From positions 1 to 30,517 of the IMG/VR virus record IMGVR_UViG_3300032282_004196: a DNA stretch of 30,517 nt. The stretch is one strand, 5' to 3'. Shown here one piece after another: positions 2,569-21,992 of the stretch (positions within the stretch are counted from its first letter, which is position 1; each line of letters opens with the position of its first letter). The position numbers and the translations under genes were made by a program. Under the pieces are notes generated by a model. It searched no databases. It was not told where the DNA came from and worked only from the letters and a program-made list of their open reading frames with translations. The stretch comes from a virus.

Positions 2569-2958
2569 TTAAGTTGCGTTCGCTCGTAACTGCTTAATTA
2601 GGTCATTTACCTCACCCGCAAAGTCAATTTTAACCTCTTGTTTGATGTCCGCTTTGATTTCACGCACATCTTTGTAGTCTTGTGGGAATTGTCCACGAAG
2701 GGCAATTTCGGCAATACGGCTATTAAACAGTTTATTGCCCACATTGGCAAGCATCTCCCGCTCCCAATATGCTTGTGAGTGTACTAAGGCCATGTCCAAT
2801 GCGTCTTTAAATTCGGGGTACTTTTTTTCCCAACCTTTAGCCACATCTTTAGTAATACCAAGATCGGCAAAGATCATTTTTTGAGATGCGCCTTGTGTGC
2901 CCAGTTCAATCATCTTATCGCACATGTCGTGAGTAAATGTATATTTTCTAACTGCCAC
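2569..2958 (-). CDS. Putative terminase small subunit (HTH DNA-packaging protein)
   Basis: The 129-residue product has an N-terminal helix-turn-helix (about residues 9-45: HDMCDKMIELGTQGASQKMIFADLGITKDVAKGWEKKYPEF), then AYWEREMLANVGNKLFNSRIAEIALRGQFPQDYKDV and a charged helical tail. This is the layout of Sf6-like terminase small subunits, which recognise the packaging site and present DNA to the large subunit. The large terminase here is 19 kb away on the other strand, an unusual separation. It overlaps the upstream gene by 11 nt and ends at a terminator. The alternative is a regulatory HTH protein; the post-HTH helices favour the terminase call. Confidence 0.65.
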   Translation of the reverse strand: MAVRKYTFTHDMCDKMIELGTQGASQKMIFADLGITKDVAKGWEKKYPEFKDALDMALVHSQAYWEREMLANVGNKLFNSRIAEIALRGQFPQDYKDVREIKADIKQEVKIDFAGEVNDLIKQLRANAT

Positions 2959-3211
2959 ACTTCCACCTTTTCAGTGCTGCTGCTTTACGTGTTGGTTTAC
3001 CATTTTCGTCTTTCATCGGACCTTTAACGCCAGACATCCGAGCGCAAAATGAATCCTTACGAGAACCGCCTTCTGGTTGTGGCGCTTTCAAATTAGATCC
3101 AGTAGCCGCGTTGTACTTGGCACGTCCTTTGGCTGTTAACCCAGCACCTTGTGATGCTGGTAGCTTTTCACCACGACCAATAGAAAGGGAAGGAGCTTTT
3201 TTAGTTGCCAT
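2948..3211 (-). CDS. Small basic conserved phage protein, DUF6321-like
   Basis: The 87-residue basic protein has the pattern SIGRGEKLPASQGAGLTAKGRAKYN, GSNLKAPQPEGGSRKDSFCARMSGVKGPMKDENGKPTRKAAALKRWKC, which I recognise as a widespread short phage protein (I believe DUF6321). Two cysteines (C56, C85) and many Lys/Arg suggest nucleic-acid binding. Function unknown. Its ATG overlaps the stop of the 49-residue gene upstream (TAATG), and it overlaps the small-terminase gene downstream, so all three are probably translated together. Confidence 0.75.
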   Translation of the reverse strand: MATKKAPSLSIGRGEKLPASQGAGLTAKGRAKYNAATGSNLKAPQPEGGSRKDSFCARMSGVKGPMKDENGKPTRKAAALKRWKCGS

Positions 3212-3360
3212 TATTTCTTTGCAGTCTTTGCTGATTCAACAAATGCTTGTTTAGTTGGGGCGCCTTTGGCACCCGGCTTGCGCATCTTTTCGCCAGATCC
3301 GGCTTTTATGCGTTCTCTCTTTGCTGCGATATTGGCGTACAAGCCAGGTTTAGTTGCCAT
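3211..3360 (-). CDS. Small basic phage protein (49 aa)
   Basis: ATG at 3360 opens a 49-residue frame beginning MATKPGLYANIAAKRERIKAG and continuing SGEKMRKPGAKGAPTKQAF. The pI must be very high. The LYANIxAKRERIKxGSGExMRKPG pattern recurs in phages next to DUF6321-like genes and the terminase, suggesting a shared role, perhaps in packaging or DNA binding. Ribosome binding site AAGGACAAATT. Function unknown. Confidence 0.7.
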   Translation of the reverse strand: MATKPGLYANIAAKRERIKAGSGEKMRKPGAKGAPTKQAFVESAKTAKK

Positions 3361-3375
3361 AATTTGTCCTTAAAT

Positions 3376-3404
3376 AAAATACGGCTCAATTTGTGAGCCT
3401 TATT
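3376..3404 (-). terminator. Probable terminator, with a partial second copy beside it
   Basis: GGCTCA (3383-3388) pairs with TGAGCC (3394-3399) around ATTTG; on the minus strand the stem runs into GTATTTTATTT. The arm ATACGGCTCA is repeated about 30 nt upstream on that strand (near 3411-3420), so one arm can pair with either copy. Confidence 0.55.
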
Positions 3405-3429
3405 GTAAAAAATACGGCTCACATTGTAA

Positions 3430-3687
3430 TTAGAATATTACTGAAACGCCAGTCATTTTCTTGGCTAGGTTAGTTAATTCTCTTGTTGTACTACCACTGA
3501 TAAAGGTATTGATTTCAATAGCCTTGTCAATGATCTCTTCCATGGTTGGAAACTTAGGAGCCAATTCTTCGGCTTCTTTAGAAGTCTTATTAATGACTTC
3601 CCAAGCAGCTAGATTAGCTTCGTGTTGTTTGATCATTAAATCTTTAGCAGTGTTAAATACGGAATAACGGAGTTCAAATGGATTCAT
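3430..3687 (-). CDS. Conserved phage protein of unknown function (85 aa)
   Basis: I place the start at ATG 3687, preceded by GAAAGGTATTACC; the frame is open further upstream but that DNA is a structured leader. The product starts MNPFELRYSVFNTAKDLM, is helical, and has a FPTMEEIIDKAIEINTFIS segment. Short proteins with an MNPFELR start and an EEII..A..I..F helix occur in T4-like and other aquatic phages, from memory; none has a known function to me. It is the first gene after promoter copy b and its 122-nt leader. Confidence 0.7.
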   Translation of the reverse strand: MNPFELRYSVFNTAKDLMIKQHEANLAAWEVINKTSKEAEELAPKFPTMEEIIDKAIEINTFISGSTTRELTNLAKKMTGVSVIF

Positions 3688-3719
3688 GGTAATACCTTTC
3701 TTTGTGTGTTGTGTGTGTA

Positions 3720-3807
3720 ATGCCAGTGTTCTATGCAGGCGCGCTGGCATCCTGTGGCTTTCTTTACAGCCATGGTAGGGATAGGAGCGCTTCACAGCGT
3801 GTCCTAT
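3720..3807 (-). ncRNA. Structured 5' leader: three successive hairpins between promoter and gene
   Basis: On the minus strand, just after TTGCATAAGTAG, come three hairpins: (1) 3781-3807, an 11-bp stem (ATAGGA and TCCTAT arms plus a GCGCT/AGCGT inner stem) with one bulged base and a 4-nt loop; (2) 3755-3772, TGGCT/AGCCA with an 8-nt loop; (3) 3720-3750, ATGCCAG/CTGGCAT with a 17-nt loop. The gene starts 33 nt later. The layout suggests a regulatory leader or a stable small RNA. No tRNA fold or known riboswitch is recognised. Confidence 0.5.
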
Positions 3808-3809
3808 AT

Positions 3810-3841
3810 CTACTTATGCAAGAAAGCGAGGAAATCCGCCC
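3810..3841 (-). promoter_or_regulatory. Phage promoter candidate (copy b): GGGCGG - 14 nt - TTGCATAAGTAG
   Basis: Minus strand: GGGCGG at 3841-3836, 14 nt, then TTGCATAAGTAG at 3821-3810. The first G belongs to the TAG stop of the preceding gene. Counting CATAAG as the -10 hexamer gives a 17-nt spacer, standard for a sigma-70-type promoter. Confidence 0.7.
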
Positions 3842-4110
3842 TAGTTTTTGGTTTTCTTAACACCAAGGCTTTCACGCAACTCATGGCTATGTAGTTTCTT
3901 ACCAGGACTTTTAACTTCACCAACTGCTTTGGCAACTTTGGCTGCACGCTCTCTGGCTGCAAAAGTACCGTCAGAAAGAATGAATCCATGCTCGCCCTTC
4001 TTGCCAGTCTTTTTGATAATCTCATCGTGACTGTACTTGGCGTTCGGTGCCTTGCTGATGGTGCCGTCTGCGTGTTTGATTGCTGGTACTACTACTTTAA
4101 GTTTGCCCAT
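3841..4110 (-). CDS. Small basic conserved phage protein (89 aa)
   Basis: MGKLKVVVPAIKHADGTISKAP, then KKGEHGFILSDGTFAARERAAKVAKAVGEV and SHELRESLGV. The GEHGF..DDGTF..REEAA.VA..G.......SHEL pattern resembles a common phage family of unknown function whose members also have an AAIK.DG...... start. The pI is high. Ribosome binding site AAAGGAAACAAA. It overlaps the upstream membrane-protein gene by 14 nt and is the last gene before promoter copy b. Confidence 0.7.
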   Translation of the reverse strand: MGKLKVVVPAIKHADGTISKAPNAKYSHDEIIKKTGKKGEHGFILSDGTFAARERAAKVAKAVGEVKSPGKKLHSHELRESLGVKKTKN

Positions 4111-4288
4111 TTTGTTTCCTTTGTTCTACGTGCCATTTGCACAAGTCTTTGTAATACTCAATTTCTTTTCGGTACTCAAACACTTTGTTATCGTATATTT
4201 CTTGCTGCTCTTGTAGGTCTTTATCTTTTGGTCGCATGACAAGGCCGACTATAAAGCCGATAAAAAACGATAGTGCTATTTCGGTCAT
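4097..4288 (-). CDS. Single-pass membrane protein with coiled-coil tail (63 aa)
   Basis: Residues 3-18 (EIALSFFIGFIVGLVM) are a transmembrane helix, followed by a positively charged RPKDK stop and a charged helix rich in E, K, Y and Q. It should sit in the inner membrane with the C-terminal helix in the cytoplasm. The size and layout recall phage i-spanin-like or membrane anchor proteins, but no partner gene is present, so function is unknown. Strong ribosome binding site GGAGATAAC. Confidence 0.65.
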   Translation of the reverse strand: MTEIALSFFIGFIVGLVMRPKDKDLQEQQEIYDNKVFEYRKEIEYYKDLCKWHVEQRKQNGQT

Positions 4289-4289
4289 G

Positions 4290-4532
4290 TTATCTCCTAA
4301 ATGATCCGATTGGTTTACGCCTGCCGTATGTCTTACGAATGCGCAGTGCTGTTTTCATGCCAAATATTCTATTACACCAGCCTTGATGCGCACGTCGAAT
4401 CTGTTGCATCTTAAATCGCAACACCAAAGGTTTTGGTTTCTTTCTAGTAATAGTGCGACGAGCGCCGACATTACCAAACACGCTGGTAAAGTCGTTGCGC
4501 TTGATGCGTTTACGAAAGTTAAACCGTTTCAC
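4290..4532 (-). CDS. Very basic small protein, GTG start (80 aa)
   Basis: A GTG start at 4532 overlaps the stop of the upstream gene as GTGA. Lys and Arg dominate (MKRFNFRKRIKRNDF at the start, RRKPIGSFRR at the end), with one cysteine. The protein probably binds nucleic acid. Translational coupling and the ribosome binding site for the next gene lying at its 3' end (AGGAGATAA) support expression, but no family is recognised. Confidence 0.5.
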   Translation of the reverse strand: MKRFNFRKRIKRNDFTSVFGNVGARRTITRKKPKPLVLRFKMQQIRRAHQGWCNRIFGMKTALRIRKTYGRRKPIGSFRR

Positions 4533-4705
4533 TGTTTAATACCAATTCCATGAGCTTGCTCCACCGCTCGACCAATGGCTAAGTGAATATCTTGCAATGA
4601 CACATAGCCTGTTGTCATGGCATAGGTCATCACATCAAACATAGCATCGGCTGCAATTTCGCACATCATCTCGTCTGTTAGTGGTTCTAGAATGTTATTT
4701 GTCAT
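4529..4705 (-). CDS. Hypothetical acidic helical protein (58 aa)
   Basis: I choose ATG 4705 (MTNNILEPLTDEMMCEIAADAMFDVM) rather than an upstream start, because it overlaps the previous stop by only 11 nt and gives a sensible N-terminus. The product is rich in Met and acidic residues and ends HLAIGRAVEQAHGIGIKQ. No family recognised. Confidence 0.55.
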   Translation of the reverse strand: MTNNILEPLTDEMMCEIAADAMFDVMTYAMTTGYVSLQDIHLAIGRAVEQAHGIGIKQ

Positions 4706-4919
4706 CGGGTATGATGATAGTTTTTTTAAGCTCCGATGGGGGTGTGTTACCACCATGTTCTTTACGATACCGAAGAGCATCATTCAAAATCATTTTGGTC
4801 ATTGCCATTGCTTCTTCTTGTATTTTAAGCTCTTGTTCGTCTGTTAATTTTTTCTTTTCAACAGCCGCCACAATATCGTTGCGGACTCCCGCCATTTTAA
4901 GAAGTTGTTTGAGATTCAT
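4695..4919 (-). CDS. Hypothetical charged helical protein (74 aa)
   Basis: MNLKQLLKMAGVRNDIVAAVEKKKLTDEQELKIQEEAMAMTKMILNDALRYRKEHGGN: predicted to be almost fully alpha-helical and highly charged. It starts 23 nt inside the upstream gene and overlaps the downstream one. Function unknown. Confidence 0.55.
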   Translation of the reverse strand: MNLKQLLKMAGVRNDIVAAVEKKKLTDEQELKIQEEAMAMTKMILNDALRYRKEHGGNTPPSELKKTIIIPDDK

Positions 4920-5112
4920 TTTTAGCTTTCAATGCCTCAATAGCGGCTTTAAATTGCGGTTCACCTTGCATCTGGATGTACCCAATTAAATTGGCTGATG
5001 CCAAATAGGGTGCATTGCCTAAGATATGTAAGATTTGGTTTACTTGAGCAACCGTAAACGAAAAGTTAATAATTGCGTCATCCAAAGGATCTTTTTTAAT
5101 TTCTTGTGTCAT
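4897..5112 (-). CDS. Conserved phage protein (71 aa)
   Basis: Contains FTVAQVNQILHILGNAPYLASANLIGYIQMQGEPQFKAA, a pattern that recurs in short aquatic-phage proteins (FTVAQVN..L..LG..PY..S...I..IQ.QG..Q). Single compact helical domain. ATGA-coupled to the gene upstream. Function unknown. Confidence 0.65.
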   Translation of the reverse strand: MTQEIKKDPLDDAIINFSFTVAQVNQILHILGNAPYLASANLIGYIQMQGEPQFKAAIEALKAKNESQTTS

Positions 5113-5411
5113 TTCTTTTTGCCTTTCTTTAATACTCCGCCTAAATTGGCTAGTTCTATTGATGCTGTTCTTCTTGCTAACTTTTCTGGATCCGTGCAGT
5201 ATTCGTTAAGTTCCATCTTACGGCAGTATGTATCCATTAATTTTTCCATGCGCATGTCGTGTAAAACTTTGATACCCCATAAAGCATTAGCCACATCATC
5301 TTCTGTCATCGGAACTGGATGGTCACCATGATGCTTGTATAACAAATCAATGTCTTCACTGGTTTGCCATGCCAACATGATGGCACTTTCTAAATCTATT
5401 TTTGAATTCAT
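5109..5411 (-). CDS. Conserved phage protein (100 aa)
   Basis: The core IDLESAIMLAWQTSEDIDLLYKHHGD and MTEDDVANALWGIKVLHDMRMEKLMDTYCR is conserved among short phage proteins of this kind; the C-terminus is a KKGKKK tail. Mostly helical. Start and stop are both ATGA overlaps with neighbours. Function unknown. Confidence 0.65.
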   Translation of the reverse strand: MNSKIDLESAIMLAWQTSEDIDLLYKHHGDHPVPMTEDDVANALWGIKVLHDMRMEKLMDTYCRKMELNEYCTDPEKLARRTASIELANLGGVLKKGKKK

Positions 5412-5623
5412 TTCTTTTTTGCTTTCTTAATGGCTGATTTAAAATCTGTACAAAAATGTGAACCAACTAATTCCATCGCTGGGATTAATTCTTTCCAATG
5501 TTTTACATCATCTGGATGCCAAGCGTTAGGGTTTTTTTGCATTTGTTTTAGCATAAGATAGCTTTCAGCTAAAACCCCAACTAAAATAGCATCGGCGTAA
5601 TCATCATCGATTTCAATTTTCAT
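5408..5623 (-). CDS. Small protein related in tail sequence to its neighbour (71 aa)
   Basis: Start set at ATG 5623, where ATGA overlaps the stop of the DUF3310 gene; an ATG three codons upstream (5632) is less likely. The product MKIEIDDDYADAILVGVLAESYLMLKQM is acidic at the start and ends FKSAIKKAKKK, like the Lys-rich end of the next gene. Function unknown. Confidence 0.6.
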   Translation of the reverse strand: MKIEIDDDYADAILVGVLAESYLMLKQMQKNPNAWHPDDVKHWKELIPAMELVGSHFCTDFKSAIKKAKKK

Positions 5624-5844
5624 TTTCCGCACTCCACTTCATGGTTAATCATTTTTTGAATGTACCAAATAGCTTTACGCAAATCTTCGACACCGCCTTT
5701 TTTCTTCCAGCGATACAAATATTTGATGGCGTTGCCTGTGCACATGGCCTCCATGCCTTCAAGTCCTTGAATTGCTGACTCAATAGCATCAATACATTCC
5801 ACACCACCTTGATAATGTTTAGGATTGTTCACTGCGTCGTGCAT
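5620..5844 (-). CDS. DUF3310 protein (phage nucleotide-kinase-like)
   Basis: Residues 3-21 (DAVNNPKHYQGGVECIDAI) and the rest (GNAIKYLYRWKKKGGVEDLRKAIWYIQKMI) are the full DUF3310 signature: NPxHY, ECID, the GNxIKYxxRWxxKGGxxDLxKAxWYxxK stretch. Some members are annotated as nucleotide kinases but there is no P-loop here, so the biochemical role is open. Start chosen at ATG 5844, preceded by GGAGAAAGC; an in-frame ATG 8 codons upstream lacks a good site. It overlaps the upstream gene by 26 nt. Confidence 0.85.
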   Translation of the reverse strand: MHDAVNNPKHYQGGVECIDAIESAIQGLEGMEAMCTGNAIKYLYRWKKKGGVEDLRKAIWYIQKMINHEVECGK

Positions 5845-6010
5845 GCTTTCTCCGTAACTCACTTTCAATCACTTCTACCTCTTCGGGGTGCTCGCATACC
5901 CAAAGTGTTTGGATGTCTTTAAACATAGAGAGATCAATATCTTCAACACCAGTAACGGTATCAAACATAGGATAGCCCTTATGTAAGTGTTCAACAACAA
6001 AGATACTCAT
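5819..6010 (-). CDS. Hypothetical acidic protein (63 aa)
   Basis: MSIFVVEHLHKGYPMFDTVTGVEDIDLSMFKDIQTLWVCEHPEEVEVIESELRR: beta-alpha type composition, acidic, ATGA-coupled to the gene upstream. No family recognised. Confidence 0.55.
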   Translation of the reverse strand: MSIFVVEHLHKGYPMFDTVTGVEDIDLSMFKDIQTLWVCEHPEEVEVIESELRRKHARRSEQS

Positions 6011-6306
6011 AGTTTTAGTTCCTCTTTAATAAATTCTACTGCTCGATCGTAATGGTACCGCCAATGTTTTTCTGATACGCCAATGTCCAAATGGGTCATT
6101 CCCATCAAAAAAGCCTCAATAATTTGCTTTGGTTTTTCTGGCATGCGCTCATCAATTATACGCTCAATGTCAATTAAATCATCTAAATCCCAAGGCAACC
6201 AACCATTTTCTAACACACCAGCAAACGCATCAATGTCGTCTAGTTCTAAAGGATCCATCTCCTCATCAGATAAACGCGGCTTACTGCAATTGATTATTAT
6301 TCTCAT
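6007..6306 (-). CDS. Small protein with sigma-region-4-like HTH (99 aa)
   Basis: The N-terminal half is acidic (DEEMDPLELDDIDAF). Residues 57-97 (EKPKQIIEAFLMGMTHLDIGVSEKHWRYHYDRAVEFIKEEL) have the spacing of the sigma-70 region 4 / LuxR-type helix-turn-helix: a helix ending in G.TH..I, a recognition helix beginning SEKHWR and a final amphipathic helix. This would bind DNA or the RNA polymerase beta flap. The window's own sigma factor lacks region 4, which makes this domain notable. The gene is ATGA-coupled to the helicase. The HTH assignment is by pattern only. Confidence 0.6.
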   Translation of the reverse strand: MRIIINCSKPRLSDEEMDPLELDDIDAFAGVLENGWLPWDLDDLIDIERIIDERMPEKPKQIIEAFLMGMTHLDIGVSEKHWRYHYDRAVEFIKEELKL

Positions 6307-12893: not shown

Positions 12894-13225
12894 TTCTCCT
12901 CCTTGAAGAAAGTGTCTAATGTTTCAACTTCGTTCGGTTCATCCCAGTTATCTGAATCTCCATAATCGCCTCGGGTTGCCCTTAAGCGTTCTTCATGGCG
13001 GTATCTGGGTTCAATCGCCCACCATGCAGCCGATGCCTCTTTGTATTCAATCCATTCATCGTTCATCACGAAGAGCGGATGGTTCAATCCATTGATATGT
13101 ACACTATCAGTAAAATCACGATGAGGTATATAAGCATTTCTAGTATTCTCTTTGGTTTTTACTAATTTGACTCTGTCACGAGCACGAATAAATCTATTGT
13201 ATGCACGAATCTGTTCTTCAGTCAT
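12890..13225 (-). CDS. Hypothetical conserved-looking protein (111 aa)
   Basis: Charged, with many aromatic residues: YNRFIRARDRVKLVKTKENTRNAYIPHRD, HPLFVMNDEWIEYKEASAAWWAIEPRYRHEERL, then an acidic tail (DYGDSDNWDEPNEVE). It overlaps the sigma gene by 8 nt. I do not recognise a family. Its position directly after the sigma gene in the same transcript could point to an associated role, but that is only position. Confidence 0.6.
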   Translation of the reverse strand: MTEEQIRAYNRFIRARDRVKLVKTKENTRNAYIPHRDFTDSVHINGLNHPLFVMNDEWIEYKEASAAWWAIEPRYRHEERLRATRGDYGDSDNWDEPNEVETLDTFFKEEK

Positions 13226-13823
13226 CGTATCCTTCTTGTTCTAAATGTTCGGAATTAAAAATCTCTAAGCTGACTGGCTCTTTACTGATTATGGAATTAA
13301 TGTAAGCAATGCGAGTGGTTGACACCCCTAGTTTATCAGCAAGCTCTTTATCAGAAGGCTGGCGCTGGAGGGCTTGGCTGAGCACACGCTCGTTGTATTT
13401 GATTCTACGGATCTCTTCAGTAATGTTTACTGGCAATCGAATAATGTTTTTGGTATTGGCAACACCCCGATTGACATCGAAGTGTATGAATTTTTTGGCA
13501 TAGGAGGCAAACCGGATTCTACCCATCGGTTTCCAGGAACGAGCTGCGTTGAGCAAGGCCTCGTTGCCGAATGATAAAAGGTCTTCCATCGGCATATTGG
13601 AATGCGCCCAGTTCGGCATCTTTTTAATGACCGAGACTACAAAGCGAAGGTTGTGGGTTACTAGTTTATCGAGGGCTGCCTCATCACCTTGAGCGATCAG
13701 AATCCCCAGCTTTGCCTCTTCTTCAAGGGTTAGCGTGGGGATCTTGTACAACGACTGCATATAATCAGTCAACGCATTTTTGCGGTTTCTCAATGGGGGT
13801 TCTCCAATCGGATTGGGGGTCAC
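13218..13823 (-). CDS. Phage-encoded sigma-70-family factor lacking region 4
   Basis: 201 residues from a GTG start. Region 1.2 is DYMQSLYKIPTLTLEEEAKL through AQGDEAALDKLV (about 19-56); region 2 is HNLRFVVSVIKKMP...DLLSFGNEALLNAARSW..... RIRFASYAKKFIHFDVNRGV (57-121), including the helix that reads the -10 box; region 3 is VNITEEIRRIKYNERVLSQALQRQPSDKELADKLGVS (132-168). The chain ends after EPVSLEIFNSEHLEQEGYDD, where region 4, the -35 reader, would start. T4 gp55 also lacks a canonical region 4. It should bind host RNA polymerase core and redirect it, plausibly to the TTGCATAAGTAG sites, which resemble a long -10 element. Family assignment is firm; target promoters are inferred. Confidence 0.9.
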   Translation of the reverse strand: MTPNPIGEPPLRNRKNALTDYMQSLYKIPTLTLEEEAKLGILIAQGDEAALDKLVTHNLRFVVSVIKKMPNWAHSNMPMEDLLSFGNEALLNAARSWKPMGRIRFASYAKKFIHFDVNRGVANTKNIIRLPVNITEEIRRIKYNERVLSQALQRQPSDKELADKLGVSTTRIAYINSIISKEPVSLEIFNSEHLEQEGYDD

Positions 13824-16117: not shown

Positions 16118-16195
16118 ACTACCTCCCTTGTAAAAGTTCAATCGTACTGGTACTACAACAAAAGTACATAGGTAGTTACCCTAGGTCGTGGCCCC

Positions 16196-16213
16196 AGGGT
16201 AAACCCCTATTGA
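16196..16213 (-). repeat. Short palindromic repeat R1
   Basis: TCAATAGGGGTTTACCCT on the minus strand, in opposite orientation to the other clear copies. It overlaps the last codons and TAG stop of the gene at 16207-16380. Confidence 0.75.
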
Positions 16214-16380
16214 CTCTTATAAAAATGTCTTTCGGCATTTCTCCATCCCGATACAAAATCAATACAACTGGCTTTTAAATCGGAAGAAAAAAGTTGCTGC
16301 CCATCGAGAGTCACAATAAATCCTCCACGATGATCAGTTCGAGGTTCGATAATGAGGTGTGCCATATCAGCGATATTCAT
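16207..16380 (-). CDS. Hypothetical protein (57 aa)
   Basis: ATG 16380 overlaps the upstream stop (ATGA). MNIADMAHLIIEPRTDHRGGFIVTLDGQQLFSSDLKASCIDFVSGWRNAERHF: looks like a beta-beta-alpha unit, similar in composition to short DUF-type phage proteins. Its stop lies in repeat R1. Confidence 0.6.
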   Translation of the reverse strand: MNIADMAHLIIEPRTDHRGGFIVTLDGQQLFSSDLKASCIDFVSGWRNAERHFYKSQ

Positions 16381-16577
16381 ACTTCTACCTCCGCTACTCG
16401 CCAATCGTGGGCATCGTAGTCAATCATAAAACCCTCTTCGACTGCCAATGCCATCGACTCGATGTGATCTTGCAATTCAAGTTCTGCCTCTTCCTTGCTA
16501 TCGTACAAGGTTGGAATATCTTCGGGGCATTCCCACCCTTCATTAAAAAACAATGCTTGGATTTGCCATTTTTTCAT
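16377..16577 (-). CDS. Conserved-looking phage protein (66 aa)
   Basis: Start ATG 16577 (ATGA overlap, GGAGGATAGC). MKKWQIQALFFNEGWECPEDIPTLYDSKEEAELELQDHI...EEGFMIDYDAHDWRVAEVEV: the beta strand - turn - helix - beta strand layout with a final WRVAEV strand is common among small phage proteins. Function unknown. Confidence 0.65.
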   Translation of the reverse strand: MKKWQIQALFFNEGWECPEDIPTLYDSKEEAELELQDHIESMALAVEEGFMIDYDAHDWRVAEVEV

Positions 16578-16774
16578 GCTATCCTCCGCACCCAATGCTC
16601 ACCGCTTTCATTAAATTCTGCACGATCGCCCACCTCAAGCATATCGACAATGTGAATTTCTTCGTCACCATACCCACGCAATTCATTAAAAAATTCTAAA
16701 TCGTAATAAGCAAGGGTTGACTTTTTATCTGCATGGCGATATCCATCACCCCAAAAGCATTCAAACTGTTTCAT
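16574..16774 (-). CDS. Conserved phage protein (66 aa)
   Basis: MKQFECFWGDGYRHADKKSTLAYYDLEFFNELRGYGDEEIHIVDMLEVGDRAEF: the start (FECFWGDG..HADKKSTL.YY...FFNE..GY...DI..I..L..G) is a pattern I recognise from several other phages. Function unknown. Confidence 0.7.
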   Translation of the reverse strand: MKQFECFWGDGYRHADKKSTLAYYDLEFFNELRGYGDEEIHIVDMLEVGDRAEFNESGEHWVRRIA

Positions 16775-16934
16775 CGCTCAATACCTCCATTGTTTCGGTG
16801 ATTAGTTTTCTATTGTGGTTTCTAAAACAATGCTTTAATACTTCCACCATTAAGTTATTTTGCAATGCCTTAAGATAATCATCTGATACTTCGACATACA
16901 TCGATATATCAATTTTTACTTTATTTTTTGCCAT
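16761..16934 (-). CDS. Hypothetical protein (57 aa)
   Basis: ATG 16934 with GGGAG seven nt upstream opens a 57-residue frame, MAKNKVKIDISMYVEVSDDYLKALQNNLMVEVLKHCFRNHNRKLITETMEVL. It overlaps the next gene by 14 nt. Two beta strands and a helix; function unknown. Confidence 0.6.
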   Translation of the reverse strand: MAKNKVKIDISMYVEVSDDYLKALQNNLMVEVLKHCFRNHNRKLITETMEVLSDETV

Positions 16935-16954
16935 CTCAACTCCCTAATTTTGTG

Positions 16955-16997
16955 TGATCAATATTGATCCAGTAAAGCACTCTCAGAATGCTTTACT
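16955..16997. other. Intergenic hairpin and adjacent palindrome
   Basis: AGTAAAGCA (16971-16979) pairs with TGCTTTACT (16989-16997), a 9-bp stem with a 9-nt loop. Next to it is the palindrome GATCAATATTGATC (about 16956-16969). No T-run follows on either strand, so this may be a processing or operator site rather than a terminator. Confidence 0.5.
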
Positions 16998-17005
16998 AGG
17001 CAACA

Positions 17006-17455
17006 TTACACAAGTTCGTACTTACCCTTACCGAAGGTTTTATCTAAATGTGCAACTGCTAAATCCATATCGTGGGTTTTAATGGTGCGGAATGAATCCT
17101 CACTATCGTCTGTCAATCGAAACAAAATGCCCTTTTTACGATGTTTAGACATCTCATACTCTTCCAACAAAATACCAATGGCGGTATCAGTATCGTGATC
17201 AAAAAATTCTGATCCATTGATTGCACCCCAAGATGATTTCCATTGCCCTAATGATTTGACATAGTCATCCCATATGGTTTTGAATGGTGACTCTTTCCAA
17301 TTTGAGTCTGAGTCGGCAAAGGTCATATCAATACATCCACCATTGCCATCGTTATGCACCCATGCAAACTTTTTATTGTTGAGATAGAGATTGAATTGAT
17401 ATCCACCTCCGTCTTCAGTTTGCCAATGTTTAAAAGCTTTAATTTGAAAATTCAT
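17006..17455 (-). CDS. Hypothetical protein (149 aa)
   Basis: Start at ATG 17455, an ATGA overlap; the frame is open 8 codons upstream inside the neighbour. MNFQIKAFKHWQTEDGGGYQFNLYLNNKKFAWVHNDGNGGCIDMTFADSDSNW... DTDTAIGILLEEYEMSKHRKKGILFRL. Similar in layout to short phage proteins with a beta-rich domain and a K-rich strand. No family name known to me. It ends in front of a hairpin. Confidence 0.65.
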   Translation of the reverse strand: MNFQIKAFKHWQTEDGGGYQFNLYLNNKKFAWVHNDGNGGCIDMTFADSDSNWKESPFKTIWDDYVKSLGQWKSSWGAINGSEFFDHDTDTAIGILLEEYEMSKHRKKGILFRLTDDSEDSFRTIKTHDMDLAVAHLDKTFGKGKYELV

Positions 17456-17745
17456 GCTATCTCCCAAGTGTTTATCCAAATACGATTTGCATCACAAAAA
17501 TCATAGAGTTCAGACAACAATATGTCGATCTCTTCCACATTATCGCAATACTTTAAATTGTCGATAGTGTCCTCTGTGGAATAATCATCCTCAAACATAT
17601 CGGGATGAGCATCCATAAATTTTGAAAACTTCTGATAAATATCCATTGCAATTTTTTGGATGGGTTCATCGGTTACGATTTGACCCCCATCGTCAAATTT
17701 GCTAAAGATATCTGACAGATCAATTTGATATTTCCAATTTGCCAT
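17452..17745 (-). CDS. Conserved-looking acidic phage protein (97 aa)
   Basis: MANWKYQIDLSDIFSKFDD... ends NVEEIDILLSELYDFCDANRIWINTWEIA. The W.Y.IDL.DI start and the final LYD..D..R.WI segment recall short phage proteins that begin WKH.V.L.D and end D..W...YDWAD..R.WI. Acidic, helical. Ribosome binding site GGAGGATTGAATT. A terminator and repeat R2 lie just upstream, so this gene may head an operon. Confidence 0.65.
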   Translation of the reverse strand: MANWKYQIDLSDIFSKFDDGGQIVTDEPIQKIAMDIYQKFSKFMDAHPDMFEDDYSTEDTIDNLKYCDNVEEIDILLSELYDFCDANRIWINTWEIA

Positions 17746-17787
17746 AATTCAATCCTCCATTGTTTAAATTAAACTACTGACTCCAAC

Positions 17788-17813
17788 AAAAACCACTCTA
17801 TAGAATGGTTTTT
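17788..17813 (-). terminator. Terminator hairpin after the 57-aa gene
   Basis: AAAAACCA (17788-17795) pairs with TGGTTTTT (17806-17813) with a 10-nt loop; on the minus strand the arm ends in TTTTTG. It lies 36 nt after the stop at 17849. The stem is weak in GC. Confidence 0.6.
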
Positions 17814-17819
17814 AGTAGG

Positions 17820-17837
17820 TCAATAGGGGTTTACCCT
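17820..17837 (+). repeat. Short palindromic repeat R2
   Basis: TCAATAGGGGTTTACCCT, perfect consensus, between two minus-strand genes. On the minus strand it reads AGGGTAAACCCCTATTGA followed by CC, which supplies a TTGACC box upstream of the gene at 17745. Confidence 0.8.
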
Positions 17838-17848
17838 AGTTAGGCTGC

Positions 17849-18022
17849 CTAGGGGTTGATCAATCCCTCTTCCAATAATTGGTTGAGGGTTCGACCAAAA
17901 AACCCTTGTAACCCATAACCTATGCGAGTGTCATGCAAGTATTGCCATGCCTCTAATACTTGCTCTTCTGAGTCGCATTCAATAAAACCCTCTGCAATCC
18001 CTACTGCTTGAAAATTATCCAT
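17849..18022 (-). CDS. Conserved small phage protein (57 aa)
   Basis: ATG 18022 opens MDNFQAVGIAEGFIECDSEEQVLEAWQYLHDTRIGYGLQGFFGRTLNQLLEEGLINP. The pattern AEGF(I)E......EAWQ.L.DTG....LQG.FGR....L...G.I is familiar from many phages. Function unknown. It ends at repeat R2 and the terminator. Spacing of 2 nt from the gene upstream indicates one transcript. Confidence 0.75.
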   Translation of the reverse strand: MDNFQAVGIAEGFIECDSEEQVLEAWQYLHDTRIGYGLQGFFGRTLNQLLEEGLINP

Positions 18023-18024
18023 AA

Positions 18025-18264
18025 TTAATTACCCTTCAATAAGTTTTTTAATTCAAGTTTTAATACTTTGGCATCATTGCCTCTAAAAGTGCTGGCATTA
18101 GCTAAAAAATACATAATGACATTTTTTGCATCATCATAAATATAAGTGTCATTAATGTTATCTAGATATTCCATTGCATCTAAATAGGGTTTTGCTCCGA
18201 AATATGGTTTAATCCATACCTTTTTAATATCTCTCGCAATGCTTGAGATTGATCTATTTTCCAT
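18025..18264 (-). CDS. Conserved small phage protein (79 aa)
   Basis: Start at ATG 18264, preceded by CGGGAGAATAAACTA. MENRSISSIARDIKKVWIKPYFGAKPYLDAMEYLDNINDTYIYDDAKNVIMYFLANASTFRGNDAKVLKLELKNLLK: the SI..IAR.I...W...YFGA.PYL.AM..L......Y..D.AK....YFL.NA...RG..A...K.ELK pattern is a recurrent one in phages of Gram-negative bacteria. Function unknown. First gene downstream of repeats R3 and R4. Confidence 0.75.
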   Translation of the reverse strand: MENRSISSIARDIKKVWIKPYFGAKPYLDAMEYLDNINDTYIYDDAKNVIMYFLANASTFRGNDAKVLKLELKNLLKGN

Positions 18265-18331
18265 TAGTTTATTCTCCCGTAATATAGGCACAATTGCCCT
18301 ATATCTATCTTATCGGAATGGTATAAAATTG

Positions 18332-18353
18332 ATATTAGGGGTTTCCCTAATAT
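18332..18353. repeat. Short palindromic repeat R3 (long-arm form)
   Basis: ATATTAGGG - GTTT - CCCTAATAT: 9-bp perfect arms with a 4-nt centre, the strongest palindrome of the family. Confidence 0.7.
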
Positions 18354-18370
18354 GACCCAAAATGCAAACC

Positions 18371-18384
18371 TAGGGTTTACCCTA
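18371..18384. repeat. Short palindromic repeat R4
   Basis: TAGGG-TTTA-CCCTA, 5-bp perfect arms, 13 nt before the left 107-bp direct repeat. Confidence 0.7.
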
Positions 18385-18396
18385 ATATATGCCTAG

Positions 18397-18503
18397 AATC
18401 GATTTAACGGGGTTTTGGCGGGTTTTTTAGGTTTAGCTCACAAGTGCATTAGCACCTAGTCAATCGTTCAATCTGAGCGGTTTTGATCGTTAGGGTTTAC
18501 CCT
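18397..18503 (+). repeat. 107-bp imperfect direct repeat, left copy
   Basis: It aligns without gaps to 19470-19576. Shared blocks: AATCGATTTAA.GGGGTTTT, GGCGGGTTTT, GCATTAGC at offset 50, then TGAGCGG..., GATCGTTAGGGTTTACCCT. The last block is repeat R5. The 415-nt gap 18265-18679 has no gene; it contains R3-R7, this repeat, a 10-bp-arm palindrome at 18510-18530 (ATTGCTTAAA / TTTAAGCAAT) and a terminator. Confidence 0.8.
18491..18503 (+). repeat. Short palindromic repeat R5
   Basis: TAGGG-TTTA-CCCT at the end of the left 107-bp repeat, in the context GATCGTTAGGGTTTACCCT, the same as R9. Confidence 0.7.
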
Positions 18504-18539
18504 TACCGGATTGCTTAAAATTTAAGCAATTCGATTGTG

Positions 18540-18557
18540 TCAATAGGGGTTTACCCT
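18540..18557 (+). repeat. Short palindromic repeat R6
   Basis: TCAATAGGGGTTTACCCT, perfect consensus. On the minus strand it runs into TTGACA, a perfect -35 box, but no good -10 follows at 16-18 nt. Confidence 0.8.
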
Positions 18558-18590
18558 TAGGCCCGATTGATCATAAAATTTTGGATTTGA

Positions 18591-18607
18591 CAATAGGGGT
18601 TTACCCT
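18591..18607 (+). repeat. Short palindromic repeat R7
   Basis: CAATAGGGGTTTACCCT, preceded by A in place of T. Confidence 0.8.
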
Positions 18608-18631
18608 GGGTTGTGGCTGCCACGCAACAAT

Positions 18632-18660
18632 CAATAAAAAACCCGCCTATTGGCGGGTTA
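18632..18660 (-). terminator. Strong terminator after the GP88-like gene
   Basis: AACCCGCC (18640-18647) pairs with GGCGGGTT (18652-18659) around TATT; the minus strand continues TTTTTTATTG. It follows the stop at 18680 by about 20 nt, so the GP88-like gene is a single-gene transcript. Confidence 0.9.
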
Positions 18661-18679
18661 CTTGTGATAGTAGATTGAT

Positions 18680-19327
18680 CTAGTGATATTTATAGGATAC
18701 ATTAGGGATTGATTTATCCCAACAATTGCGACAATCTAAGCATTTTCCGCCTTGTTTATAACTAGGGCATTCTGTACCCATTGCATTATTAGCTAGATGT
18801 ACTGTAGATGTATGCTCGAATTTTGGGGGTTTACTATCCCGTTTTGTTGCGGATACTCTCACAATCAAATTATTAGGGAATGCTCCAAAATTATCTAAAT
18901 ATTGTTTTACTAGGTTACTCTCTTTTGTTGGTATCCAAAATTGAGTATTAGGGCAATTATCCGCAACGCTCACAATATTAAGTAAGTGCTGGAATGACTG
19001 GATATCTCCACTATCATGCCACCTAAAATATTGCATTGCTTGTTTATTAATAATAAAAGACATTGCCTCCACCCATTGCGGGTTAGTTAAGCTTTGATAT
19101 CTCCGCTCATGAGCAATATCTATAGTTTTAGCATAGCGGATATAATTGCCTTTTAATGCATAGCAATTGTGGCAAACTGTACCCTCTATTTTGGCAAGCT
19201 TTGATCCAGTATTGCAACGCTTTGCACTTATTGAATAGCTAGAACATGGCATTTTACTAGGTGCTGATAACCCGCCAATAATATCCATTGCTTGTTTAAT
19301 GGTTTTAATTAATTGCTTTTGTTGCAT
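18680..19327 (-). CDS. GP88-like cysteine-rich phage protein (215 aa)
   Basis: Cysteines fall in recognisable pairs: KMPCSSYSISAKRCNTGSKL, EGTVCHNCYALKGNY, and C-terminal TECPSYKQGGKCLDCRNCW. Between them come QWVEAMSFII, YFRWHDSGDIQS, PNTQFWIPTKES and PNNLIVRVSAT. These segments match the GP88-like phage family (named from a mycobacteriophage gene product). CxxCYA and the FRWHDSGD motif are its hallmarks; the cysteines may bind metal or an Fe-S cluster, which is inference. It is a monocistronic gene in the middle of repeat-rich noncoding DNA, with its own GGAGG site and terminator, and flanked by the 107-bp direct repeats. TTGCAA - 17 nt - TATTAG upstream could be its promoter, adjacent to repeat R8. 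Confidence 0.75.
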   Translation of the reverse strand: MQQKQLIKTIKQAMDIIGGLSAPSKMPCSSYSISAKRCNTGSKLAKIEGTVCHNCYALKGNYIRYAKTIDIAHERRYQSLTNPQWVEAMSFIINKQAMQYFRWHDSGDIQSFQHLLNIVSVADNCPNTQFWIPTKESNLVKQYLDNFGAFPNNLIVRVSATKRDSKPPKFEHTSTVHLANNAMGTECPSYKQGGKCLDCRNCWDKSIPNVSYKYH

Positions 19328-19404
19328 AAATCCTCCGATAGTTAGTTAATTAGGATAATGCTTACCTAATACTCTATATTTTAGACACTTGCAACAATAT
19401 CTAT

Positions 19405-19419
19405 ATAGGTGTTTACCCT
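19405..19419. repeat. Short palindromic repeat R8
   Basis: ATAGGTGTTTACCCT, one arm mismatched, upstream of the GP88-like gene's putative promoter. Confidence 0.6.
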
Positions 19420-19469
19420 AAGGCCATGACATACAATTGCATTGCTTAAAAAATAGGCAATGCCTCTAA

Positions 19470-19576
19470 AATCGATTTAATGGGGTTTTGGCGGGTTTTG
19501 TTGCGTGTTGATCTACTTGCATTAGCTCATTGTTGATTGTGCAATATGAGCGGATCTGATCGTTAGGGTTTACCCT
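19470..19576 (+). repeat. 107-bp imperfect direct repeat, right copy
   Basis: Partner of 18397-18503, ungapped, 1073 bp apart, ending in repeat R9. Both are preceded by a short palindromic repeat (R4 or R8), so the duplicated unit is a control region rather than random DNA. Confidence 0.8.
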
Positions 19577-19577
19577 A
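19564..19577 (+). repeat. Short palindromic repeat R9
   Basis: TAGGG-TTTA-CCCTA at the end of the right 107-bp repeat. Confidence 0.7.
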
Positions 19578-19617
19578 GGTTGTTGCGTGTAAAAATAGGG
19601 CAAATTGTGCAGCAAAA

Positions 19618-19634
19618 CAATAGGTGTTTACCCT
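19618..19634 (+). repeat. Short palindromic repeat R10
   Basis: CAATAGGTGTTTACCCT, one mismatch to consensus. Confidence 0.65.
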
Positions 19635-19664
19635 TAGTTGCCGGAAAACAACACTATTGGATTG

Positions 19665-19682
19665 TCAATAGGGGTTTACCCT
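19665..19682 (+). repeat. Short palindromic repeat R11
   Basis: TCAATAGGGGTTTACCCT, perfect consensus; last copy toward the structural genes. On the minus strand it runs into TTGACA, as does R6. Confidence 0.8.
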
Positions 19683-19776
19683 AAGGCCATATTGTTGCAT
19701 TGCATCATTGTCGCATTGTTGGGAAATTGTGCCCACCCCCTCCCACTCTCTCACGCACGCATAAACAGACTGCTAA

Positions 19777-19992
19777 GTTAGTAAGCACTAACATTATCAG
19801 CGTGACAAATTGTTGCGTTGCAATATGTTGCGTTGCACCAAGTTAGTAGCCGCTAACCTGGCAGTTAGTAAGCGCTCACTAACTTAGCAGATTGTTGCGT
19901 TGCAATATGTTGCGGTGCAACAAGTTAGTAGTCGCTAACTTGTAAGTGAGCACTCACTTGCAGCCTGGTTAGTAAGCACTCACTCACTTGTC
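19777..19992. repeat. Interleaved inverted and direct repeats (GTTAG/CTAAC cluster)
   Basis: Palindromes: GTTAGT-AAGC-ACTAAC (19777-19792), GTTAG-TAGCCG-CTAAC (19842-19857), GTTAGT-N8-ACTAAC (19864-19883), CAAGTTAG-TAGTCG-CTAACTTG region (19921-19942), AAGTGAG-CA-CTCACTT (19944-19959). A 51-bp direct repeat (19809-19859 and 19891-19941, few mismatches) starting ATTGTTGCGTTGCAATATGT carries two of them. This dense arrangement suggests protein-bound iterons, such as an origin or partition-like site. The gap 19328-20511 has no normal-sized gene. Confidence 0.7.
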
Positions 19993-20748: not shown

Positions 20749-21031
20749 TTTTTACGTTTACCAAATCAAGGGCATACTTGAAAAACCCAACAAGGAAATC
20801 GGCGGTATGAGGGTATTACTCTGTTCTAAAGACTTCTTTGATTCAGTTGATGTACCAGCAAATATCTTTGATAAAGAAACATTGAAGTATTTAAAGTTTC
20901 GTTTGGCTGTTAATGAGTTTATTGATATTAAGAAACTGCCCGTCCATATTGTTAATAAAATCCGTGCTCCCCTAAATCAGTGGTTAGATAATTGGGTGAT
21001 TAGAGAGAATATCTTTGGGCATAGCAAGTAA
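20741..21031 (+). CDS. Hypothetical protein (96 aa)
   Basis: MPNFYVYQIKGILEKPNKEIGGMRVLLCSKDFFDSVDVPANIFDKETLKYLKFRLAVNEFIDIKKLPVHIVNKIRAPLNQWLDNWVIRENIFGHSK. Alpha-beta composition; not recognised. It ends inside the intein-like gene, and a +1 shift at ATC-TTT-GGG near 21011-21019 would join it to that frame. Confidence 0.6.
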   Translation: MPNFYVYQIKGILEKPNKEIGGMRVLLCSKDFFDSVDVPANIFDKETLKYLKFRLAVNEFIDIKKLPVHIVNKIRAPLNQWLDNWVIRENIFGHSK

Positions 21032-21992
21032 TACTCCAGTCCCCGTATTGGGAGGATGGAAACTCGCTGGTCAATTAACTACGAAAGATTATGTATTTTC
21101 GTGGGATGGTTATCCCTTGCCGATTAAAACCATTCAGCATTATGTACCCCATCAGATGTTTGATATCCAGTTAAAAGACGGGGTTTATTTGGAAGTCGAT
21201 GGGCACGCAAAGTTTCCAGCATTTACAACCCGTAATCGCCAAAGAGAATCCCGCCATCAAGGTAAATATAAAAGGCATTACATTCAGCGTTACTATAGCC
21301 CAGATGATTTGCTTGAAAAGGGATTAACAGATAAGCGGGGCTGGAATGTATTCTCGATTGAAAATACCGACCCCATTCAGTTTCCCTTTGAGGATCATCC
21401 TGTGCCCCCGTTCATCGTGGGGTTGTGGGCAGCCAAACAACGAGGCAAGGTGAACTTTACCTTTGAGACCGATTGGGTTGAGCCAGTGCAAAAGAAGATC
21501 CGCGCTTTGGGGTGGCACACAGATCGCAAAGGAAACACCCTCACATTCACGCAATCCATTGGTGTTTCATTTCTCACCCGCTATTCACGCATCCCAACAA
21601 CCATCCCAATTGAATACACCTTTGGATCGGTAGAACAGCGCATTGAGTTCCTTAAGGGGATTGTTGCGATGAAACCAGGATCTTATAACGCACGCTTAGA
21701 TCGGTTTCTTATCTATGCTAGGGACTTACGGTTCCTCATCACACTGCAGTCGATCTGTGAATCGCTGGGGATGAAGAGCTATGTGTTTGATAATAAGTCA
21801 TCACTCACGCACCAACTTACGTTTAAGACCGACATCCAGTTACATCCCAAGCAGCAAACACAAAAAGGGATTAAAGGTCATAAACGCCGCATGATAACTA
21901 AAGTGGAGAAAATAGATCCCGCGCCCACAGTGCACATCGAAACAGATGCGCCGTTCGTGGTCGGTCAGGGGTTTCTACCAATATGGCATTAA
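21015..21992 (+). CDS. Orphan intein-like (Hint) protein with degenerate LAGLIDADG endonuclease, before terL
   Basis: 325 residues from a TTG start. Residues 3-33 (IASNTPVPVLGGWKLAGQLTTKDYVFSWDG) look like intein block A; LEVDGHAKFPAF (59-70) like block B with its His; FIVGLWAAKQRG (133-144) and EQRIEFLKGIVAMK (207-220) like the two LAGLIDADG helices, but the catalytic acidic residues are replaced by A/K; YARDLRFLITLQSICESLGMKSYVF (234-258) is the typical block after the second; PTVHIETDAPFVVGQGFLPIWH (304-325) like blocks F and G, ending in His instead of His-Asn. The usual first Cys is absent. So it resembles a complete intein with splicing and cutting residues lost, encoded as a free-standing gene that overlaps the large terminase by 10 nt. 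It may be a domesticated relic or a packaging accessory. The domain reading is by pattern only. Confidence 0.6.
   Translation: MGIASNTPVPVLGGWKLAGQLTTKDYVFSWDGYPLPIKTIQHYVPHQMFDIQLKDGVYLEVDGHAKFPAFTTRNRQRESRHQGKYKRHYIQRYYSPDDLLEKGLTDKRGWNVFSIENTDPIQFPFEDHPVPPFIVGLWAAKQRGKVNFTFETDWVEPVQKKIRALGWHTDRKGNTLTFTQSIGVSFLTRYSRIPTTIPIEYTFGSVEQRIEFLKGIVAMKPGSYNARLDRFLIYARDLRFLITLQSICESLGMKSYVFDNKSSLTHQLTFKTDIQLHPKQQTQKGIKGHKRRMITKVEKIDPAPTVHIETDAPFVVGQGFLPIWH

Follow-up and report, generated by a model that had tools for sequence, protein, structure and literature searches.

Lambda CI bound at OR2 activates PRM, a case of a phage dimer acting from about −42. Class II activator sites are centred at −41.5 (PMC5957442). 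In T4 middle promoters a missing −35 hexamer is made up for by the MotA box, an asymmetric TGCTT element centred at −30 and lying 12 bp from a good −10 (PMC2988021). The stoperators of Cluster A mycobacteriophages are asymmetric 13-bp sites that are mostly not associated with promoters and are read by a phage repressor (PMC6550527).

The window analysed here is the entire IMG/VR record IMGVR_UViG_3300032282_004196 (30,517 bases). The genes up to 20.4 kb run along the minus strand and include those for a sigma factor, a C5 methyltransferase, a primase-helicase and many small ORFs, and the structural genes are on the plus strand; the same genome plan is seen in a complete-looking relative of 67.8 kb (G001). 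We also note an Rfam match to the DUF2815 RNA (44.5 bits) at 1140–1199 on the minus strand, and a plus-strand ORF directly before the terminase gene (21015–21992) that has weak PHROG terminase matches and, by eye, an intein/Hint-like start.

Twelve copies of a palindrome occur in the window, all between 16.1 and 19.7 kb (Table 1). An earlier sequence-only reading had listed eleven of these, every one of which is confirmed in its place, and it had correctly described four exact copies of TCAATAGGGGTTTACCCT (that at 16196 being on the minus strand) and a near-exact fifth; the twelfth, AGGGTAACTACCTA, lies 13 bp from the 16196 site and had been overlooked. Two spacer forms are present, TAGGG-N5-CCCTA (N5) and TAGGG-N4-CCCTA (N4), and in its minus-strand reading the N5 form is AGGGTAAAC[AC]CCTA followed by TTGAC. 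The family is real and far above chance, with 17 matches to TAGGGNTTTACCCTA at up to three mismatches in the window, compared to 1.8 ± 1.4 in dinucleotide shuffles (maximum 5 in 100 shuffles). The claim that the sites lie only in the gaps of one region also holds, as all twelve are between ORFs, with that at 16196 overlapping a stop codon, and a genome-wide scan found no sites elsewhere in the window. Similarly, all eight exact box copies of G001 fall within a single 3.8-kb stretch (15.3–19.1 kb), and a reversed-pattern control gave no matches in any of the 29 records searched.

Table 1. Palindromic boxes and associated genes in the window.
Feature	Coordinates	Strand	Details
Phage sigma factor gene	13218–13823	-	Regions 1.2, 2 and 3, no detected region 4; conserved in the window's phage family
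Twelfth box, AGGGTAACTACCTA	16169–16182	-	TGTACT, 16-nt spacer, −10 TACGAT 16146–16141, ATG 16117
Box AGGGTAAACCCCTA-TTGAC	16196–16209	+	Opposite orientation, paired with the 16169 box
Box AGGGTAAACCCCTA	17824–17837	-	TTGACC, 17-nt spacer, −10 TAGAGT 17800–17795, ATG 17745
Box AGGGAAACCCCTA	18336–18348	-	ATATCA, 17-nt spacer, −10 TAAGAT 18312–18307, ATG 18264
N4-form box AGGGTAAACCCTA	18371–18383	-	35 bp from the 18336 box
Distal array N4-form box AGGGTAAACCCTA	18491–18503	-	
Distal array box AGGGTAAACCCCTA-TTGACA	18544–18557	-	Without −10
Distal array box AGGGTAAACCCCTA-TTGTCA	18594–18607	-	Without −10
GP88-family gene	18680–19327	-	Between two box arrays; Pfam PF17338, E=3e-25
Box AGGGTAAACACCTA	19406–19419	-	Hexamer TATAGA 19405–19400, 16-nt spacer, −10 TAAAAT 19383–19378, GP88 gene ATG 19327
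Distal array N4-form box AGGGTAAACCCTA	19564–19576	-	
Distal array box AGGGTAAACACCTA-TTGTTT	19621–19634	-	Weak −10 TATTTT at 17
Distal array box AGGGTAAACCCCTA-TTGACA	19669–19682	-	Without −10

The gene-proximal boxes of the window (19406, 18336, 17824 and 16169) share a common layout, each of the four having a −10 at 16–17 nt and an ATG 51–78 nt downstream. The −10 hexamers are only moderate (TACGAT, TAGAGT, TAAGAT and TAAAAT), and taken alone these four boxes are only suggestive; the argument is carried by counts across the viral collection. The 19406 box and its −10 are identical in a relative (L153/L077), and promoters orthologous to that at 18336 occur in L011, L052 and L074, with the palindrome kept and a different centre (AGGGTTTCCCCTA). 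The 17824 promoter has orthologues in nine other loci, with TAAA, TTTA or TATA at the centre of the box, and the 16169/16196 pair is conserved in L011, L025, L074 and L120. Throughout these orthologous promoters the AGGG/CCTA ends are kept and the upstream flank is unrelated, and this combination of constant ends with a variable centre and flank is as expected if two half-sites are read by a dimer.

Complete counts over the whole viral collection show how rigidly the box is placed. The pattern AGGGTAAACACCTA-N22/23-TAYAAT occurs in 62 stretches, many of which are related copies (29 have independent flanks), and 26 of these 29 independent cases have an RBS-ATG shortly downstream. Shifting the gap to N26/27 leaves no stretches and shifting it to N18/19 leaves three, and the reverse complement of the box at N22/23 likewise gives three. 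TAYAAT was used for these scans because the looser TANNNT is permissive, giving 107 stretches in a control at N29/30; exact-pattern scans of this kind detect consensus sites only. A motif scan for the N5 form found at least 119 stretches of viral contigs, and among the matches listed, 56 independent N5 sites are followed by TTG; a −10 (at least 4/6) lies at spacer 16 in 15 of these and at spacer 17 in eight, with about one at each other offset. Since the −10 follows the box at a constant 22 or 23 nt, the box is centred at about −41.5 or −42.5. When box promoters are picked by a looser scan without any −35 criterion, TTG is present in seven of 67 independent cases among the matches listed, and TTGAC in one, although −10s of at least 5/6 are found in 33 of the 67 as against two of 33 in an offset control. 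The −35 is thus mostly missing and the −10 good, and the promoters appear to depend on the box instead of a −35. Some box promoters do have a TTGACA, as in L032 (TTGACA-16-TATAAT). Elsewhere in the collection, a siphophage-like contig (L274) has one early region at 2600–6069 with four box promoters.

The geometry, conservation, promoter spacing and orientation bias of the sites are read directly from the sequences, and from these we consider it probable that a dimeric transcription factor binds the palindrome, with the gene-proximal copies most likely serving to recruit RNA polymerase in the manner of class II activators. These boxes would directly precede the −35 hexamer in promoters of sigma70 type, or replace it, with their centre at about −42, and the promoters would drive small phage genes of early type. 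The same factor probably also binds the distal arrays (two to four boxes at intervals of about 50 bp), which would then act as auxiliary or titrating sites. Two features of class II sites were found, namely a centre at about −41.5 at a fixed distance from the −10 and a weak or absent −35, and the weak −35s favour activation over repression. Against the activator, most boxes of the distal arrays have no −10, the TTGACA behind some boxes makes repression possible, and a perfectly symmetric site does not demand the strong orientation dependence that is seen. The sequence-only reading had offered operators for a phage regulator, or replication iterons. That the box is a regulator's site controlling operons of small genes is now strongly supported, as it abuts the −35 hexamer and keeps its fixed 22/23-nt gap to the −10, and the iterons gained no support; that the regulator is phage-encoded is left unproven, since the box occurs in unrelated phages and the search for a regulator gene common to them found none.

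The box is carried by unrelated phage groups with different portals, mostly from freshwater. A DNA-binding protein co-occurring with the motif, as had been proposed, did not emerge among the box-bearing phages, whose shared genes are only general phage genes or specific to a family; likewise, sequence clustering gave no shared regulator among them, and Pfam and PHROGs gave no HTH regulator among 55 window-family proteins, the sigma factor aside. This sigma factor is a candidate partner of the box. As a general reader of the box, a sigma factor lacking region 4 was rejected, as it is restricted to the window's own phage family and the other box groups are without it.

A variant of the activator reading, to which we give a minority share of our confidence, is that the activator is encoded by the host and borrowed by many phages, the host regulon being small or degenerate. 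An element common to unrelated lineages without a shared gene would fit this, as would the named relatives of some box-bearing contigs, which infect Betaproteobacteria (Limnohabitans, Curvibacter and Burkholderia); a betaproteobacterial MAG also contains a related phage contig. However, the motif is rare in bacterial and archaeal genomes: 257 Gb of sequence contain only eight matches to TCAATAGGKGTTTACCCT, where by our estimate chance alone would give about 15 if base composition were even. No excess of the box over the reversed control was seen in 369 genomes of the class; the 120 genomes of the family have a modest excess, and the ten host-family matches inspected lack the promoter layout. 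The promoter-spaced pattern is found in one of 300 Burkholderiales genomes, and enrichment in host promoters was not found in these presumed hosts, which may not be the actual ones. As separate observations, intergenic clusters of DnaA-box-like sequences (TTATCCACA) at L061 1480–1550 and L174 5970–6085 are shared between a T7-like contig and phage DC31 of Limnohabitans, and Curvibacter phage P26059A has a stretch that matches; palindromes beside phage boxes at about 1357–1377 of L061 and near 6801 of L064 resemble, by eye, what we take to be Fur and LexA boxes.

It is unlikely that the box is instead the operator of a repressor, belonging to the phage or to a co-resident element, that binds beside the −35 and shuts early promoters, with the arrays serving cooperative repression. 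Palindromes in arrays at steps of about 50 bp, the perfect sigma70 promoters behind some boxes (that of L032 above) and the paired sites at 16169 and 16196 are what such a protein might use. But most box promoters have no −35, which is unexpected if they are to work unaided, and a centre at −42 is the usual place of an activator. Furthermore, Pfam found no HTH repressor among the 55 proteins scanned, and neither an integrase nor a CI-like repressor was seen by eye in G001.

The distal arrays (18491/18544/18594 and 19564/19621/19669) have steps of 48–57 bp and are part of regions duplicated around the GP88 gene (18393–18608 and 19466–19683). Relatives carry similar arrays, in which the slot of 39–40 nt between the N5 and N4 boxes often has differing palindromes; in L019, L112, L052 and L010, as in the window at 18510–18530, the palindrome in this slot differs by phage, and one resembles an NtrC site (GCACCATATTGGTGC). 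Beside the arrays, at 19775–19986, lie TTGTTGCGTTGCA repeats and the members of another palindrome family, GTTAGTRAGYRCTYACTAAC; the GTTAGTRAGYRCTYACTAAC palindrome is absent from the 120 host-family genomes. We think it improbable that the distal arrays, at least, are iterons of a replication origin beside the divergent junction of early and late genes. Two to four boxes about 50 bp apart adjoining such a junction, with the further repeats nearby, would suit an origin, but other phages have the same box at single promoters, and G001 lacks a sharp GC-skew extremum at the location of the arrays. An RNA hairpin or attenuator in place of a DNA site is very improbable, for although the N4 form can fold a 5–6 bp stem with a UAAA loop and a terminator scan lists two N4-form sites, the box precedes the promoter that it goes with, the stem is disrupted by the common A variant (G-A), folding of the spacers does not improve on that of shuffles (mean z of −0.4) and no Rfam match was found at box sites.

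Returning to the dimeric activator, we suggest, tentatively and at somewhat less than even confidence, that the box marks a widespread and so far undescribed transcription-activation system, mostly of freshwater phages, in which one box would serve unrelated lineages and its factor would have essentially no bacterial chromosomal targets. Text searches limited to open-access literature found no paper describing the box, and a search with the box letters returned unrelated papers only. A rigidly placed promoter element conserved across unrelated phages points to a common step in the takeover of host RNA polymerase. The box offers a direct handle, as a DNA bait or in a reporter, toward its regulator, and a sequence rule for locating activated promoters in uncultured phage genomes.

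How does this locus compare with the described systems? A T4 MotA/AsiA middle promoter was rejected, as no MotA/AsiA match was found and the box, unlike that of MotA, is palindromic, lacks a TGCTT core, and is centred at about −42, 22–23 bp from the −10. Cluster A stoperators resemble the box in having many copies in one region, largely in one orientation relative to transcription, but they too were rejected, as the box is palindromic and promoter-spaced and no repressor was found by Pfam in the proteins scanned. No homologue of lambda CI was found, and unlike the CI operator the box is common to unrelated phages. Class II promoters of CRP/FNR type differ in that the phage box is found in phages and shows no enrichment in those bacterial genomes that were tested, and its half-site (AGGG/TAGG) is presumably distinct from that of CRP or FNR; what they have in common with the phage box is a dimer-like palindrome near −42, a weak −35 and a good −10 at a fixed distance.
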